NCBI RefSeq assembly: GCF_014191375.1
Contig: NZ_JACHWN010000001.1
Location: 558,001-622,000 of the forward strand
From: Mesorhizobium sp. RMAD-H1
GTDB taxonomy: Bacteria > Pseudomonadota > Alphaproteobacteria > Rhizobiales > Rhizobiaceae
Direction: 5' to 3'
Length of the DNA stretch: 64,000 bases
Made by a program: the position numbers and the translations under genes. Of this stretch, positions 7,419 to 59,627 are shown piece by piece; position 1 is the first letter of the stretch, and each line of letters begins with the position of its first letter. The notes below the pieces were generated by a model. The model was not told the DNA's origin. It made no database searches and worked only from the letters and a program-made list of their open reading frames with translations.

Positions 7419-7475
7419 CGGTGGAGATGCCTTTGGCAAGCGATGCAGAAAAAGGCTCTGTCATCAATGACGGTC

Positions 7476-7511
7476 AATCTCCCCCCTTGCGCGGGAGATG
7501 CCATAGGGGGG
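7476..7511. repeat. Half element of palindromic repeat family A (right arm)
   Basis: AATCTCCCCCCTTGCG...AGATGCC followed by a run of G matches the right arm of the family seen complete at 12143, 51374, 52993, 55412 and 59472. The outer part is degenerate (ATGCCATAG in place of ATGCCCGGCAGGGCAG). It lies just after smc and is separated from a left-arm copy at 7624, so this locus holds a split or rearranged element. Confidence 0.7.
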
Positions 7512-7525
7512 TGCTGTCCCGCCAA

Positions 7526-7546
7526 CTTTCCCGCTGAGCGGGAAAG
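7526..7546. terminator. Perfect hairpin downstream of smc
   Basis: CTTTCCCGC-TGA-GCGGGAAAG is a perfect 9-bp stem with a 3-nt loop. It is strong enough to terminate transcription, but no T run follows, so it may instead be part of the repeat cluster or an mRNA-stabilising 3' structure. Confidence 0.35.
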
Positions 7547-7575
7547 GTCTCTATCCTACGGGCCGCACGCGTGGC

Positions 7576-8283
7576 ATGCCAAACATCCACGACAATAGTC
7601 CTCAATGGCGGTTCTCTATGTCGCCCCCCTCTGTCCTGCCGGACATCGCAAGGGGGGAGATTGGCCTTCATAGACATTGGTCCCTTGCCACCTCGCTTGC
7701 CTTCCACATCCTCCTTCTTGCTACCCTGTTTCTTCTCCCCAAAACCCCGCAACCCAGACTGCCGCCCGAAGAAGCCATTGTGGTGGAGATGGTTGCGTCG
7801 CCGCCCGAACCGGCTCCGCCCGTGCAGGAACTGGCTGTTCCTGAGAAAAGCCCGACGCCACCCGAAGCGCCGGCGCAAGCTCCCGCCGCCGCCCCTTCCA
7901 TGATCCGCGCAACCAACCTGTTCTCCGCCAAACTCCTCGCCGATCCGCGCAACCGGCAGGCGAGGGAGGGGCTGGCGCAACTGGCGGGGTCAGACCGGAT
8001 GGAGCAATTGTGCAATGCCGAGGCGATGGAGCAGATCCACCACTGGCGAAAGGATTTCGATCCTGACAGGCTCGTCGCCTACGCCATGGGCGATACGCGG
8101 ATCGACGGCGACATGTTCATTGCCGACCGCGCGGCATTCCGCAGCAAGCATCAGTGGTACAACGTCAAATTCCGATGCGGGCTGACATCGGACTTCAAGA
8201 CGGTCGCCTCCTTCGAATTCGAGATCGGCGATGCAATTCCGAGGGCCGAGTGGGAGGGGCACAACCTGGCGCCGGTCCATTGA
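7576..8283 (+). CDS. DUF930 domain protein with TonB-like N-terminus
   Basis: The protein is 235 residues from ATG 7576, or 221 from ATG 7618. It has a single transmembrane segment (LATSLAFHILLLATLFLLP), a Pro/Glu-rich linker reminiscent of TonB, then the C-terminal DUF930 domain (about residues 115-230) with conserved LCNAEAMEQI and FEFEIGDAIP. The family is common in rhizobia and its function is unknown; a periplasm-spanning role is suggested by topology. Neither start has a good ribosome site. The codons for SPPSVLPDIARGEIG are read from a half copy of palindromic repeat A (7624-7662). No start codon occurs between the repeat and the membrane helix, so initiation must lie in or before the repeat. 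Confidence 0.75.
   Translation: MPNIHDNSPQWRFSMSPPSVLPDIARGEIGLHRHWSLATSLAFHILLLATLFLLPKTPQPRLPPEEAIVVEMVASPPEPAPPVQELAVPEKSPTPPEAPAQAPAAAPSMIRATNLFSAKLLADPRNRQAREGLAQLAGSDRMEQLCNAEAMEQIHHWRKDFDPDRLVAYAMGDTRIDGDMFIADRAAFRSKHQWYNVKFRCGLTSDFKTVASFEFEIGDAIPRAEWEGHNLAPVH
7624..7662. repeat. Half element of repeat family A inside the DUF930 gene start
   Basis: CCCCCCTCTGTCCTGCCGGA followed by CATCGCAAGGGGGGAGATT is the left arm of repeat family A, with TGTCC-TGCC-GGACA as its first hairpin. It is translated in frame as part of the N-terminus of the DUF930 protein. Confidence 0.75.
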
Positions 8284-12142: not shown

Positions 12143-12298
12143 CCCCCCTCTGGCCTGCCGGCCATCTCCCCCTCAAGGGGGGAGATCGGCTATGAGTGCC
12201 GCTTGTGGCAATCACTAACATTACAGAATTAAGCTCCGTCATCGATGAGAGCTAATCTCCCCCTTGAGGGGGAGATGGCTGGCAGGCCAGAGGGGGTT
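12143..12298. repeat. Complete palindromic repeat, family A
   Basis: The left arm (12143-12187) carries TGGCC-TGCC-GGCCA and a C-run/G-run hairpin. The right arm (12254-12298) is its inverted counterpart with TGGCT-GGCA-GGCCA. About 66 bases separate the arms. It follows ppdK by 34 bases and may serve as its 3' structure. The rest of the 12109-12458 gap is AT-rich and includes TATAAT at 12332-12337, a possible -10 element for the deacetylase gene. Confidence 0.85.
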
Positions 12299-23354: not shown

Positions 23355-23519
23355 TGCCCCTCACCCTTACCCTCTCCCCGTGAACGGGGAGAAGGAGGCC
23401 TTGACGTCGGCTACACGCTCTACTTCGTTTCTGCCAGGCACCTCGGGTGAAATACGAGGTGCAAATGCCACACGTCCCCTCTCCCCGTCTTCACGGGGAG
23501 AGGGTAAGGGTGAGGGGCA
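23355..23519. repeat. RIME-like palindromic repeat, family C
   Basis: Inverted arms TGCCCCTCACCCTTACCCTC (23355 onward) and its complement (ending 23519) flank a variable centre. Each arm includes an inner hairpin built on CTCCCCGTGAACGGGGAG or CTCCCCGTCTTCACGGGGAG. It resembles the rhizobial intergenic mosaic elements (RIME). The 23316-23614 gap holds nothing else recognisable. It probably forms the 3' end structure of the uraH transcript. Confidence 0.7.
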
Positions 23520-51373: not shown

Positions 51374-51532
51374 GCCCCCCTCTGGCCTGCCGGCCATCTC
51401 CCCCGCAAGGGGGGAGATTACGCTTTCATGGACGTCCGGCATCAATCGCAAGCCTCGCAGAATAAAGGGCTGTCGCTGATGCCAGCCAATCTCCCCCCTT
51501 GCGGGGGAGATGCCCGGCAGGGCAGAGGGGGG
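51374..51532. repeat. Complete palindromic repeat, family A, between the macroglobulin and pbpC genes
   Basis: The arms start at 51374 and end at 51532. The hairpins are TGGCC-TGCC-GGCCA and TGCCC-GGCA-GGGCA, with inner C/G-run hairpins that use GCA loops. It ends 22 bases before the pbpC ATG and could affect coupling of the two genes. Confidence 0.85.
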
Positions 51533-51554
51533 CGCTGTCCCGCCAGCGTTTAAG

Positions 51555-53843
51555 ATGGTCCGTTCTAAAGCCATAATCTGGACAGCCGCGGCACTTGCCG
51601 CTGCCATCGGTGCCACAGCAGCCACGCTCATAACCCTCGACCGGCTCTATCCGCCGCCGCTCGAAGTGGCACGCTCCGTCTCGACGGAGGTGGTCGACCG
51701 CAACCGCCAGCTCCTCCGCGCCTTCGCCACCGCAGATGGGCGTTGGCGGCTCAAGACGGGGCTGGAGGATGTCGACCCGCGCTTCGTCCGCATGCTGGTC
51801 GCCTATGAGGATCGCCGGTTCTGGACCCATCACGGCGTCGATCCGCTGGCGCTCCTGCGCGCCGCCGGCCAGCTGATCGTAAATGGCCGCATCGTCTCCG
51901 GCGGCTCCACGCTTTCCATGCAGCTTGCGAGGCTGATCGAACCCAGGGCTGAGCGCAGCATCGCTTCGAAGCTCAGGCAGATGGCGCGGGCCATCCAGAT
52001 CGAGCAGCGGCTGAGCAAGCAGGAAATCCTTGAATTGTACCTCACGCTTGCGCCCTATGGCGGCAATCTGGAGGGCGTGCGTGCCGCAAGCCTCGCCTGG
52101 TTCGGCAAGGAGCCGCGCCGGTTGACGCTTGCCCAGTCGGCCCTTCTGGTCGCCCTGCCGCAACTGCCGGAAAGGCGCCGTCCCGACCGCAATCTGGTCG
52201 GCGCCCGCGCCGCGCGCGACCGGGTTCTGGAACGCATGGCCTCCACGGACACGATCGATGCCGGCGAAATCCGGCGGGCGGCCGGGGAGGCGGTGCCCTC
52301 GATCCGGCGGGCCTTGCCGGCGTTCGCAGCGCATCTGGCGGATGATGCCGTGCGCAAGGATCCGGCGGTGCGCCTGCACAAGGTGACCATCGACCGCAAC
52401 GTCCAGCAGGGGCTGGAAAATGTGGCGAAAGCCGCCGCAGCGCATCTCGGACCCAGGCTCTCCGTCGCCATGGTGCTTGCCGATGCCGGCACGGGCGAGA
52501 TCCTGGGGGAGGTGGGCTCGGCCGATTATTTCGACAACAGCCGGTCCGGCTGGATCGACATGACGAGGATTTCCCGCTCGCCCGGTTCGACGCTGAAGCC
52601 CTTCATCTACGGCCTCGCCTTCGAGGATGGGCTTGTGCGGCAGGAGACGATCATCGAGGATCGGCCGGCGAATTTCTTCGGTTACAGGCCGCGCAATTTC
52701 GACATGGGCTATCAGGGCGATGTCAGCATCCGCGAGGCCCTGCAGCTCTCGCTCAATGTTCCTGCCGTCCGGCTTCTCGATGCCGTCGGGCCGACGCGGC
52801 TGCTGGTGCGCTTCCGGCGGGCAGGGGTGAATGCGCAATTGCCGAAAGGCGAGGCGCCGGGATTGGCCATAGGGCTCGGCGGGGTGGGGCTGACGCTGCG
52901 CGATCTCGTGCAGCTTTATGCCGGTCTGGCCAACGGTGGGAAGGTGGTGCGGTTAAGGAATGGGGTGGAGGACTGTGAAAAACCGCAAGACACCCCCCTC
53001 TGGCCTGCCGGCCATCTCCCCCTCAAGGGGGGAGATTACGCTGTCATGGGCCATCGGCACCAATCTTCGGCGTTGCAGAACGAAAGCAGAGGGCCGTGTC
53101 GACCAATCTCCCCCCTTGAGGGGGAGATGCCCGGCAGGGCAGAGGGGGGTGAAGAGACGGGTGGTGCCGTCCAAACAGCATCCGCTCCACAACCCCAAAC
53201 CCTCCTCAGCCCCGCCGCCACATGGCAAGTCGCCGATATACTCTCCGGCGTCCTGCCGCCGCAGGGTGCCGCCAGGCGTGGCATCGCCTACAAGACCGGC
53301 ACGAGCTATGGCTATCGCGATGCGTGGTCGGTGGGCTTCGATGGCCGTTATGTGCTGGGCGTCTGGGTCGGGCGGGCGGACAATGCCGCCGTGCCGGGGC
53401 TGACGGGCTATGGCTCCGCTGCGCCTGTTCTCTTCGAGGGCTTCGCAAAATCCGGCCTCGCCCTCACGCCGCTGCCGCGCGCGCCTGCCGGAGCGGTCCG
53501 CATGGCGCGTTCCGAATTGCCGCCGAGCCTGCGCCGCTTCTCGCAAGGCAGGCTTGTCACCGCAACCTCAAGCGAACCCGCACCTGAGATCGTCTATCCC
53601 CCGGAGGGCGCGCGGGTGGAACTGATGGGCGGCGGAACGGGCGAAATCTCGCCGCTGGTATTGAAGCTGCAGGGCGGCCGTGCGCCCTTCCGCTGGCTTG
53701 CCAATGGCAGGCCCCTGCCGGAAGCCTCGCGCCGCCGCACCGCCTCCTGGATGCCTGATGGCGCCGGCTATTCGACGCTGACGGTGATCGATGCCGCGGG
53801 AAGGGCGGCAAGTGTGAAGGTGGAAATAGTGAGTAGGGAATAG
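51555..53843 (+). CDS. pbpC: Penicillin-binding protein 1C with an in-frame repeat insertion
   Basis: 762 residues from ATG 51555 (the longer frame begins in the repeat). After an N-terminal membrane anchor, the transglycosylase domain has AYEDRRFWTHHGVDPLALLR, GGSTLSMQLARLIEP and QEILELYLTLAPYGGN. The transpeptidase domain has SPGSTLKPF (Ser345, Lys348), SLN (399-401) and KTGTSYGYRDAW (Lys580). The C-terminal BiPBP_C domain follows. Residues about 480-532 are the translation of a repeat A copy, between the SLN and KTG motifs where relatives have a short loop. It probably retains function, since all catalytic motifs remain in frame. Confidence 0.9.
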   Translation: MVRSKAIIWTAAALAAAIGATAATLITLDRLYPPPLEVARSVSTEVVDRNRQLLRAFATADGRWRLKTGLEDVDPRFVRMLVAYEDRRFWTHHGVDPLALLRAAGQLIVNGRIVSGGSTLSMQLARLIEPRAERSIASKLRQMARAIQIEQRLSKQEILELYLTLAPYGGNLEGVRAASLAWFGKEPRRLTLAQSALLVALPQLPERRRPDRNLVGARAARDRVLERMASTDTIDAGEIRRAAGEAVPSIRRALPAFAAHLADDAVRKDPAVRLHKVTIDRNVQQGLENVAKAAAAHLGPRLSVAMVLADAGTGEILGEVGSADYFDNSRSGWIDMTRISRSPGSTLKPFIYGLAFEDGLVRQETIIEDRPANFFGYRPRNFDMGYQGDVSIREALQLSLNVPAVRLLDAVGPTRLLVRFRRAGVNAQLPKGEAPGLAIGLGGVGLTLRDLVQLYAGLANGGKVVRLRNGVEDCEKPQDTPLWPAGHLPLKGGDYAVMGHRHQSSALQNESRGPCRPISPLEGEMPGRAEGGEETGGAVQTASAPQPQTLLSPAATWQVADILSGVLPPQGAARRGIAYKTGTSYGYRDAWSVGFDGRYVLGVWVGRADNAAVPGLTGYGSAAPVLFEGFAKSGLALTPLPRAPAGAVRMARSELPPSLRRFSQGRLVTATSSEPAPEIVYPPEGARVELMGGGTGEISPLVLKLQGGRAPFRWLANGRPLPEASRRRTASWMPDGAGYSTLTVIDAAGRAASVKVEIVSRE
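52993..53149. repeat. Repeat family A inserted in frame in pbpC
   Basis: The complete element, arms and centre, is translated from 52993 as PLWPAGHLPLKGGD to 53149 as GEMPGRAEGG with no stop codon. The flanking sequence on both sides is ordinary PBP1C coding sequence. Confidence 0.9.
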
Positions 53844-53870
53844 TGAGTAGTGAGTAGAAGGATATCCTTT

Positions 53871-53907
53871 CACTACCTCACTACCTCACTACCTCACTAC
53901 CTCACTA
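53871..53907. repeat. 8-bp tandem repeat between pbpC and betB
   Basis: CACTACCT is repeated four times and then CACTA, ending on the betB stop codon (TAG, 53905-53907 on the minus strand). Complementary GTGAGTAG motifs lie just after the pbpC stop (53828-53858) around the palindrome AAGGATATCCTT, so the 60-bp gap can fold into a loose hairpin and may serve as a bidirectional terminator. Confidence 0.6.
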
Positions 53908-55411: not shown

Positions 55412-55567
55412 CCCCCCTCTGTCCTGCCGGACATCTCCCCCTCAAGGGGGGAGATTACGCTCTCATTTGCGCTGCAGCCAATCGCAGACAGTAGAGGATG
55501 GAGGCCGTCGTTGCTGCAAGCCAATCTCCCCCCTTGAGGGGGAGATGCCCGGCAGGGCAGAGGGGGG
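55412..55567. repeat. Repeat family A between betA and betB
   Basis: A complete element with the left hairpin in the variant form TGTCC-TGCC-GGACA, where both sides of the stem have changed. It fills most of the 212-bp betA-betB gap inside the operon and ends 13 bases beyond the betA stop. Confidence 0.85.
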
Positions 55568-55580
55568 TGAGCATGGATTT

Positions 55581-57230
55581 TCATCTGTCCGAAACCTGCC
55601 AATGCGGGTTGATCCACGGTTCCTGATTGGACCGGGGTAGGGGATCGAGCCCCAGAATATGATCCGCCGCCTTCTCGCCGGTCATGATCGACGGGCCGTT
55701 GAGATTGCCGTTGGTGATGCGCGGAAAGATGGATGAATCCGCGACCCGCAGGCCCTCCACCCCGATCACCCGGCATTCGGGATCGACCACGGCCATTGGG
55801 TCGTCAGCAGCTCCCATCTTGCACGTGCCGCAGGGGTGGAAGGCGCTTTCCGCATGGGCGCGGATGAAATCGTCGATCTCCGCGTCGCTCTCGACATTCT
55901 CACCCGGCTGGATCTCGCGTCCGCGATAGGGATCGAAGGCCGGTTGCCCGAAGATCTCGCGCGTCAGCCGCACGCAATGGCGGAAATCGGCCCAGTCGTC
56001 GGGATGCGACATGTAGTTGAAGACGATCTTCGGCTTCTCCAGCGGATCAGCCGAGCGCAACGCCACGCTGCCGCGCGATTTCGAGCGCATCGGCCCGACA
56101 TGCGCCTGGAAGCCATGGCTCTCTGCCGCCGCCTTGCCATCATAGCGGATGGCGACCGGCAGGAAATGATACTGAATATCGGGATATTCCACGCCCGGCC
56201 TCGATCGCACGAAGGCGGCGCTCTCGAAATGGTTCGTCGCGCCGTCGCCGGTCTTGAAGAACAGCCACTGCGCGCCGATCCGCGCCTTGGAGAAGAGGTT
56301 GAGCTTGGAATAGAGCGTGATCGGCTGGATGCACTCCTGCTGGATATAGACCTCCAGATGGTCCTGCAGGTTCCGGCCGACGCCCGGCCGGTCGGCGATC
56401 ACCTCGATGCCGTGTTCCTTCAGATGCGCCGCGGGGCCGATGCCGGAGAGCATCAGGAGCTTCGGCGAGTTGATCGAGGATGCCGAGACGATGACCTCGC
56501 GCCGCGCCTTGATGGTCTGGATCTTCTTGCCCGTCTGGATCTCGACGCCGGTCGCGCGTTGATTCTCGATGACAATCCTGCGCGCCAACCCCCTGATGAG
56601 TTGAACATTTTGGCGCTTCAGCGCCGGCTTCAGATAGGCGTTCGCCGCCGACCAGCGGCGACCCTGATAGATCGTCTGCTCCATCGCGCCGAAGCCTTCC
56701 TGCTTCGAGCCGTTATAATCATCCGTCACCTCGAAACCCGCCTGTTTGCCTGCCTCAACGAAGGCTTGGAACAGCGGGTTGCGGCGGCTGCCGCGCTGGA
56801 CGTGGAGCGGCCCGTCGGTCCCGCGCCAGCCCTCCTCGCCGCCATGGGAATTCTCCATGCGCTTGAAATAGGGCAGCACGTCCGCATAGGCCCAGCCGCG
56901 CGCGCCCACCTCGGCCCAATGGTCGAAGTCGCGGGCGTGGCCGCGCACATAGACCATGCCGTTGATGGAGGATGAGCCGCCGATCACCTTGCCGCGCGGT
57001 GTGACGAGGCTGCGCCCGCTCAAGTGCGGCTCCAGCTCCGAGGCGAAGCCCCAATCATAGGTCGCCATGTTCATCGGGAAGGAGAGGGCGGCAGGCATCT
57101 GGATGAAGGGGCCGATATCCGTGCCGCCATATTCGATGACGATCACCGAGTGTTTGCCGCTCTCCGAAAGCCGGTAGGCGAGCGCCGAGCCTGCCGATCC
57201 CGAGCCGATGATGACGAAATCCGCTTCCAT
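55581..57230 (-). CDS. betA: Choline dehydrogenase
   Basis: A 549-residue GMC oxidoreductase. [19 protein letters not shown] binds [21 protein letters not shown] and [16 protein letters not shown] are the GMC signatures; HPCGTCKMG carries the active-site His; [20 protein letters not shown] lies near the C-terminus. It oxidises choline to betaine aldehyde at the membrane. ATG 57230, with GAGG five bases upstream, is preferred to a GTG at 57248 that would overlap betC. It is followed by betB across a repeat insertion. Confidence 0.96.
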
Positions 57231-59471: not shown

Positions 59472-59627
59472 CCCCCCTCTGGCTTGCCAGCCATCTCCCC
59501 CGCAAGGGGGGAGATTGCGCCTTCATAGACATACGGCACCAATCACAGGCCTTGCGGAATGAACGCGTAGAGTAGTGTCAGCCAATCTCCCCCTTGTGGG
59601 GGAGATGCCCGGCAGGGCAGAGGGGGG
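59472..59627. repeat. Complete palindromic repeat, family A, upstream of the bet promoter
   Basis: It contains TGGCT-TGCC-AGCCA, another compensated stem variant, and the right arm TGCCC-GGCA-GGGCA. It lies between the divergent betI and asparaginase genes, 40 bases beyond the BetI operator. Confidence 0.85.

Follow-up and report, generated by a model that had tools for sequence, protein, structure and literature searches.

In-frame copies of a palindromic repeat in penicillin-binding protein 1C and three other enzymes of a rhizobial genome

How a conserved enzyme comes to carry a long palindromic repeat within its reading frame, and which part of that repeat is kept, is the question raised by the pbpC gene of Mesorhizobium sp. 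RMAD-H1. The gene lies in the 64,000-nucleotide stretch analysed here (the window), part of a genome of 5.14 Mb in 21 contigs. Its product is a penicillin-binding protein 1C (TIGR02073 PBP_1c, 675 bits against a cutoff of 494) with the Pfam domains Transgly, Transpeptidase and BiPBP_C, and the complete 157-bp element sits between the transpeptidase motifs S400-L401-N402 and K581-T582-G583, numbered from 51552 (Table 1). The first-pass annotation had described a complete element at this place, an open frame that gains about 53 residues, and downstream segments that stay in frame. All of this holds, with ORF 51510-53843 open across the element, the added residues at 481-533, and both K581-T582-G583 and BiPBP_C present beyond it.

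Table 1. Features of the pbpC locus and copies of the element in the window.
Feature	Position	Strand	Remark
pbpC, penicillin-binding protein 1C	51552..53843	+	probable start ATG 51555
In-frame palindromic element	52993..53149	+	residues 481-533 of the ORF counted from 51552
Left mini-hairpin GNCC-TGCC-GGNC	53002..53013	+	variable pair formed in 77/77 copies (helix 1)
Left hairpin ATCTCCCCC..GGGGGAGAT	53014..53036	+	helix 2 of covariation analysis
Variable core of element	53037..53105	+	paralogue identity: core 0.64, arms 0.91
Right hairpin	53106..53128	+	helix 3 of covariation analysis
Right mini-hairpin GCCC-GGCA-GGGC	53129..53140	+	variable pair formed in 75/77 copies (helix 4)
Left linker, species-variable	52974..52992	+	alignment, by eye
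Right linker, species-variable	53150..53195	+	alignment, by eye
Second element copy, just upstream of pbpC	51375..51532	+	no spanning ORF
Element copy without spanning ORF	55412..55567	+	window search and ORF check
Element copy without spanning ORF	59472..59627	+	window search and ORF check
Divergent element copy without spanning ORF	12143..12296	-	window search and ORF check
Degenerate or mosaic relative of element	7475..7664		no spanning ORF

The element is built from two inverted arms of 47 nt each (52991-53037 and 53105-53151) that are 96% complementary and have 67 nt between them. It is not a product of chance, because a one-arm pattern allowing two mismatches matches the genome 85 times in the forward and 84 times in the reverse direction while the reversed control gives 0 and 0, and because its RNA fold, at -123.4 kcal/mol, has z = -11.7. 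Rfam gives ten matches, of which nine are to microRNA models and the tenth, at 56632-56741, to a model of a Burkholderia sRNA; all score below the gathering scores and are taken as palindrome artefacts or chance. The helices covary in an alignment of 77 copies compared with 500 shuffles, in which 80 cells within arms have changed on both sides against 23.8 in the shuffles, none of the 500 being as high. The mini-hairpins account for 42 double changes on the left and 28 on the right. Pairing of arm with arm, considered as the main unit, also exceeds the shuffles (double-sided changes in 42 cells where the shuffles give 27.4, and 3 of 500 reaching as many), yet it is the weaker at variable positions, where the mini-hairpin bases pair across the arms in 37 and 31 of the 77 copies and inside the arms in 77 and 75. 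Since the mini-hairpins covary within arms and the two arms vary independently at these positions, the unit that is kept is a pair of inverted hairpin arms, REP-like in build. We also note a loop position (columns 31 and 136 of alignment A2) that covaries across the arms, as UA in 53 and GC in 16 of the 77 copies.

The first-pass annotation placed the other copies here only between genes or at gene ends. In the window this stands, as no ORF reaching at least 30 codons to both sides was found for any other copy; outside it three more copies lie inside enzymes. In the stretches around placeable copies, window included and among the matches listed, there are at least 83 full-length copies (120 nt or longer) in this genome, and four of the 83 examined lie in frame inside recognised enzymes. 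Besides pbpC, the hosts are an assimilatory-type nitrate reductase (L184:925-3774; it falls below the cutoff of the specific NCBIfam models and takes its name from its domains and the models that fit best), NadB (L167:2751-4445) and CobN (L178:3-3353, minus strand), which has two insert-bearing loops. The inserts fall between domains, at residues 551-603 of the nitrate reductase between Molybdopterin (68-489) and Molydop_binding (642-753), and at residues 404-456 of NadB between FAD_binding_2 (5-377) and Succ_DH_flav_C (471-549).

Spanning ORFs were those extending at least 30 codons to both sides of a copy, or in one batch 30 upstream and 20 downstream. Seven further scanned ORFs of this kind have no family match, five with NCBIfam and Pfam (in L181, L190 and L152, on the minus strand of L184, and a 333-aa one in L192) and two with Pfam only (L156 and L158), and for this reason are taken as spurious. 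Antisense ORFs over NadB (L167, minus) and CobN (L178, plus) and short ORFs in L179, L183, L186, L280, L284 and L287, with a 165-aa one in L192, lay outside the family scans, as did an ORF of L278 that is UbiB-like by eye and has the element before its probable start. A search with the element peptide in the related genome G003, with 150 of 549 candidates scored and 17 stretches read, gave no host protein recognisable by eye beyond pbpC; in the other long ORFs of these stretches the element is close to the start, or the product is, by eye, unlike familiar proteins. A tblastn search of plasmid records for more host genes gave best places without an annotated feature, in gene tables that are incomplete. 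The copy at 51375-51532 ends just before pbpC and supplies an in-frame ATG (MPGRAEGG...), so that annotated starts may be drawn into the element; long ORFs of G003 (L289, L292 and L294) likewise have the element near the start. At the pbpC stop codon (53826-53906), short tandem-like runs of TAGTGAG.. and CTCACTAC.. are seen by eye.

Comparison of PBP1C proteins marks the segment as an addition. The loop is 102 residues long here and most commonly 35 in relatives, an excess of 67 that includes the flanks, and in 110 aligned rows it measures 31-42 residues in 100 and 77-105 in 10, so that PBP1C of other lineages is without a homologous segment, as the first-pass annotation had supposed. The ten long-loop rows are six genomes of the genus (G000 to G005) and four named public records, Phyllobacterium leguminum, Paramesorhizobium deserti, P. 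phragmitis and P. salinisoli, with loops identical to those of G001, G002, G004 and G005; we infer that these are the same genomes. In all six genus genomes this loop contains the element, whole or shortened, one copy being internally deleted, and the flanks beside it, which differ between species, look like drifted linker. Longer matches at the pbpC loci of Sinorhizobium, Ensifer and Mesorhizobium were rejected as independent inserts, since the element there lies outside the PBP1C match. A structure model built from 31 sequences, with 7 of 38 left out of the alignment, is middling (mean pLDDT 74.4; five models 39-74), and its fold matches class A PBPs (4oon, Z 33.5, rmsd 3.2, 320 aligned). 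Residues 475-547 are modelled as coil with pLDDT below 50, between helices 449-460 and 554-565 and ahead of the KTG strand (579-584), which fits a disordered loop and agrees with the exposed loop guessed at the outset.

One explanation is that the host genes are decaying pseudogenes or assembly artefacts whose frame is open by chance. A single copy could indeed be open, the frames in question being open in 8-53% of 76 other element copies. However, each of the four hosts is one open frame across the loop in all six genomes, and the 20 gene-by-genome comparisons with G000 all give a host dN/dS (simple Nei-Gojobori) of 0.09-0.18, or of 0.09-0.24 for the part downstream of the insert. The corresponding values for pbpC are 0.13-0.18 and 0.12-0.21, which answers the concern that this gene might be drifting as a pseudogene, and the four named public records with the same pbpC loops argue against an assembly artefact. 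The host genes look functional, and we regard decay or artefact as scarcely credible. The ORFs were picked by length and similarity, and genome searches that read through stops counted zero stops within the host matches. In the genus, every one of the 19 internal full-length inserts reads through without a stop in its host's frame (the list holds 20, of which NadB L225 5-160 is an upstream extension), whereas for other copies the open share is the 8-53% given above; the product over the 20 listed inserts, 6.4e-12, is no P value because related inserts are not independent. The same observation bears on the proposal that ribosomes bypass the hairpin and the residues are never made. The extremely stable predicted mRNA hairpin could be read in its favour, but bypass would tolerate stops in the insert and all 19 are open, which makes it highly improbable.

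The sites differ in their occupancy between sister species. The nitrate reductase site holds a full element in four of the six genomes (G000, G002, G003 and G004), a degenerate stretch, perhaps of another repeat, in G001, and no match in G005, where a short scar is seen by eye. At NadB the element is full in G000, G001 and G003, a remnant in G002 and absent from G004 and G005. CobN loop 1 is filled in five of six, with a scar in G005. In loop 2 the element is complete in G001 and G004 and reduced to short remnants in G002 and G005, while G000 and G003 have a different palindrome there. Scar DNA keeps the ends of the element and keeps the frame. These remnants, scars and absences show that NadB, nitrate reductase and CobN can do without the insert. 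The palindrome in CobN loop 2 of G000 is 74.5% identical to an inverted repeat of a second family at window 23360-23518. That family (CCCTCTCCCC...GGGGAGAGGG) occupies 23355-23519; its relative sits in frame in CobN loop 2 of this genome, and the peptide at that loop is the same in G003. Within the genus, G003 is closest for CobN (92%) and nitrate reductase (90%) and most distant for PBP1C (74%) (L014, L196, L249), which hints at recombination around pbpC.

The element is also read in different frames. Its offset in pbpC is 2 in G000 and G004 and 0 in G001, G003 and G005, and it is 2 in nitrate reductase, 1 in NadB and 0 or 1 in CobN; both orientations occur by best match, although orientation is hard to call in a near-palindrome. 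Because the frames differ between species, the peptide is not the conserved thing. This weighs directly on the idea that each enzyme has put the peptide to use as a functional part, for which the occupancy of the pbpC loop throughout the genus could be cited. The sequence of such a part would change from species to species with the frame, it is predicted to be disordered, and it is reduced or missing in some sisters for the other three hosts, and we find adoption distinctly improbable.

What does persist is the likeness of the arms. In the full pbpC inserts their identity to the G000 arms is 0.95-0.98 (0.90-0.98 when every pair is counted), while synonymous sites in the pbpC pairs with G000 differ by 0.42-0.50. 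The best explanation is some constraint, or a homogenisation, that acts on the DNA or RNA. The insert might accordingly be kept for a function of the mRNA or DNA, such as translation pausing, mRNA processing or hairpins that bind a protein or polymerase, with the peptide as a by-product, and arm identity at such synonymous divergence, the different frames, the covarying mini-hairpins and the very stable fold are all consistent with this. However, random copies of this genome show a similar arm identity (0.91), so that no gene-specific role is needed, and the sister NadB, nitrate reductase and CobN genes have reduced their inserts to remnants or scars or are without them. We consider such a function unlikely, and prefer the reading that the insert is a tolerated and dispensable spacer.

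The insert cores bear on whether each site was filled once or many times. With CobN pairs mixing loops 1 and 2 dropped, only 1 of 23 same-site pairs of insert cores exceeds the 95th percentile of paralogue pairs. Same-site cores are thus hardly more alike than paralogues, and at pbpC an old insertion with drift or conversion is indistinguishable from repeated insertion. At CobN loop 1, G000 and G003 differ by 0.24 at synonymous sites and their cores share an identity of 0.60, which is at the 29th percentile for pairs of paralogues, and this low identity despite close hosts speaks for replacement, conversion or fresh insertion over plain descent.

The same CobN loops recur as sites of the element across the family. 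A search of 151 genomes gave a CobN match at 1e-200 in 79, and element arms are present at the CobN loops in 14 of the 27 best-scoring loci outside the genus, in 12 genera, a choice of loci that favours insert carriers; in this count L313 is placed by position only and L254, whose matches lie upstream of the protein, is uncounted. Shinella sp. PSBB067 has a degenerate copy, and at the CobN loci of S. meliloti Ak57 and Sinorhizobium sp. M103 no element was found. A CobN tree was made from 37 rows by exact anchors, with the loops excluded and L255, L313 and L315 skipped (L316 is a poor row, its first anchor misplaced). The label 'no element' requires 9 changes on this tree, and supported branches force at least 8 of them. 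Taken singly, loop 1 gives at least 9 changes and loop 2 at least 6, and a rougher loop 2 cut without L313, L315 and L316 likewise forces at least 8. These are not eight insertions, because an element that was lost, or that decayed until the search no longer recognised it, is scored as a change too. A wider reading is that protein-invading palindromes occur throughout the Rhizobiaceae and land preferentially in certain loops. The two CobN loops, and one loop each in PBP1C, NadB and nitrate reductase, would then gain, lose and regain inserts over and over, whatever the frame and even from a palindrome family that is unrelated, because what is targeted or kept would be the hairpin in DNA or mRNA and not the peptide; we offer this tentatively, as a possibility that we would not yet favour.

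Several known repeats invite comparison. The Rickettsia palindromic element (RPE; Ogata et al. 2000, 2002) is described, in the available parts of PMC10969869, PMC2229807 and PMC3733652, as a small palindrome forming a long stem-loop, found between genes and in frame in unrelated conserved proteins. The element studied here is alike in being a palindrome both intergenic and in frame in several unrelated, functional-looking conserved genes, and at 157 bp with 47-nt arms it is slightly longer than the 105-146 bp that the accessible text of PMC2229807 gives for RPE. The differences are that the host is a rhizobial lineage, that all three frame offsets are used and change between sister species in pbpC and CobN, that the same CobN loops are occupied in many genera, that each arm has two hairpins, and that 4 of 83 copies examined lie in enzymes as against 'nearly half' of RPEs, a figure cited in PMC10969869. 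The element resembles RPE in how it works. The protein-invading behaviour proposed in the first-pass annotation is borne out by four unrelated enzymes in this genome; its view of the Rickettsia element as the only parallel is not, as in-frame fusions with genes are also reported, in the available portions of the sources, for the small enterobacterial ERIC/RU-1 and RU-2 elements (PMC2759123, PMC2229807), the 107-bp Neisseria Correia element (PMC2229807) and Coxiella QMITE2 (PMC5896051). Those cases are given gene by gene in these portions, whereas here the same loops are traced across a genus and a family, and dN/dS values and a tree go with them.

By its distribution, the element is probably of the rhizobial RIME kind. 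It is a high-copy and mostly intergenic repeat of Rhizobium relatives, with homologous copies in records of Sinorhizobium, Ensifer, Rhizobium, Shinella, Nitratireductor and Mesorhizobium. In plasmid records, several of which carry few annotations, no annotated feature underlies the best place in 23 of 25 and 18 of 20, the remaining 2 and 2 being without annotation. It may also resemble RIME1/RIME2 in sequence. The Rhizobium-specific intergenic mosaic element (Osteras et al. 1995) is cited as intergenic in the accessible parts of PMC2573895, PMC2245857 and PMC2873474, whereas here there are in-frame, putatively translated copies inside enzymes. REP/BIME sequences, according to what is available of PMC3733652, are short hairpin units with compensatory changes and a GTAG or CGTC tag. 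The short hairpin units, their inverted pairing and the compensatory changes in 77 copies are shared, but by inspection neither tag is in the consensus arms of the 77 copies, and some copies lie inside genes. The element has the terminal inverted repeats expected of a MITE. A clear target-site duplication was not seen; repeats of 5 bp or more were found at the ends of none of the 83 copies, and an excess of 2-bp repeats at the ends (also 4 bp inside them) is confounded by shared flanks and by the palindrome itself. Literature searches in which subscription papers are thinly covered showed, in titles and abstracts, no report of translated copies of this element, and this is weak evidence of novelty.

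The mechanism that we propose is that a high-copy hairpin repeat, made of two inverted REP-like units and a variable core, inserts into, or is copied to, new places in the genome, and that insertions into genes would nearly always be lost. The survivors would be those in frame in permissive loops or interdomain linkers, as in PBP1C, nitrate reductase, NadB and CobN. There the element would be translated, presumably into stable protein, as some 53 extra residues forming a disordered spacer, and the enzyme would keep working. The peptide itself would be unselected and its presence neutral, with the frame shifting between species and the insert able to shrink to an in-frame scar. We think it very probable that this is a usually intergenic REP/RIME-like repeat that is retained in genes only when in frame in permissive loops, and is translated there as a disordered, dispensable spacer.

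The finding places an in-frame palindrome in a rhizobial lineage with cultured members, and in four enzymes at once. Because filled, shortened and empty sites exist in sister species, the question of whether such an insert is neutral, harmful or useful is directly testable, and the sites show which protein loops tolerate 53 foreign residues. They also carry a warning that automatic annotation may include repeat peptides within conserved proteins. As is known for Rickettsia, mobile-looking DNA has here apparently been built into proteins.
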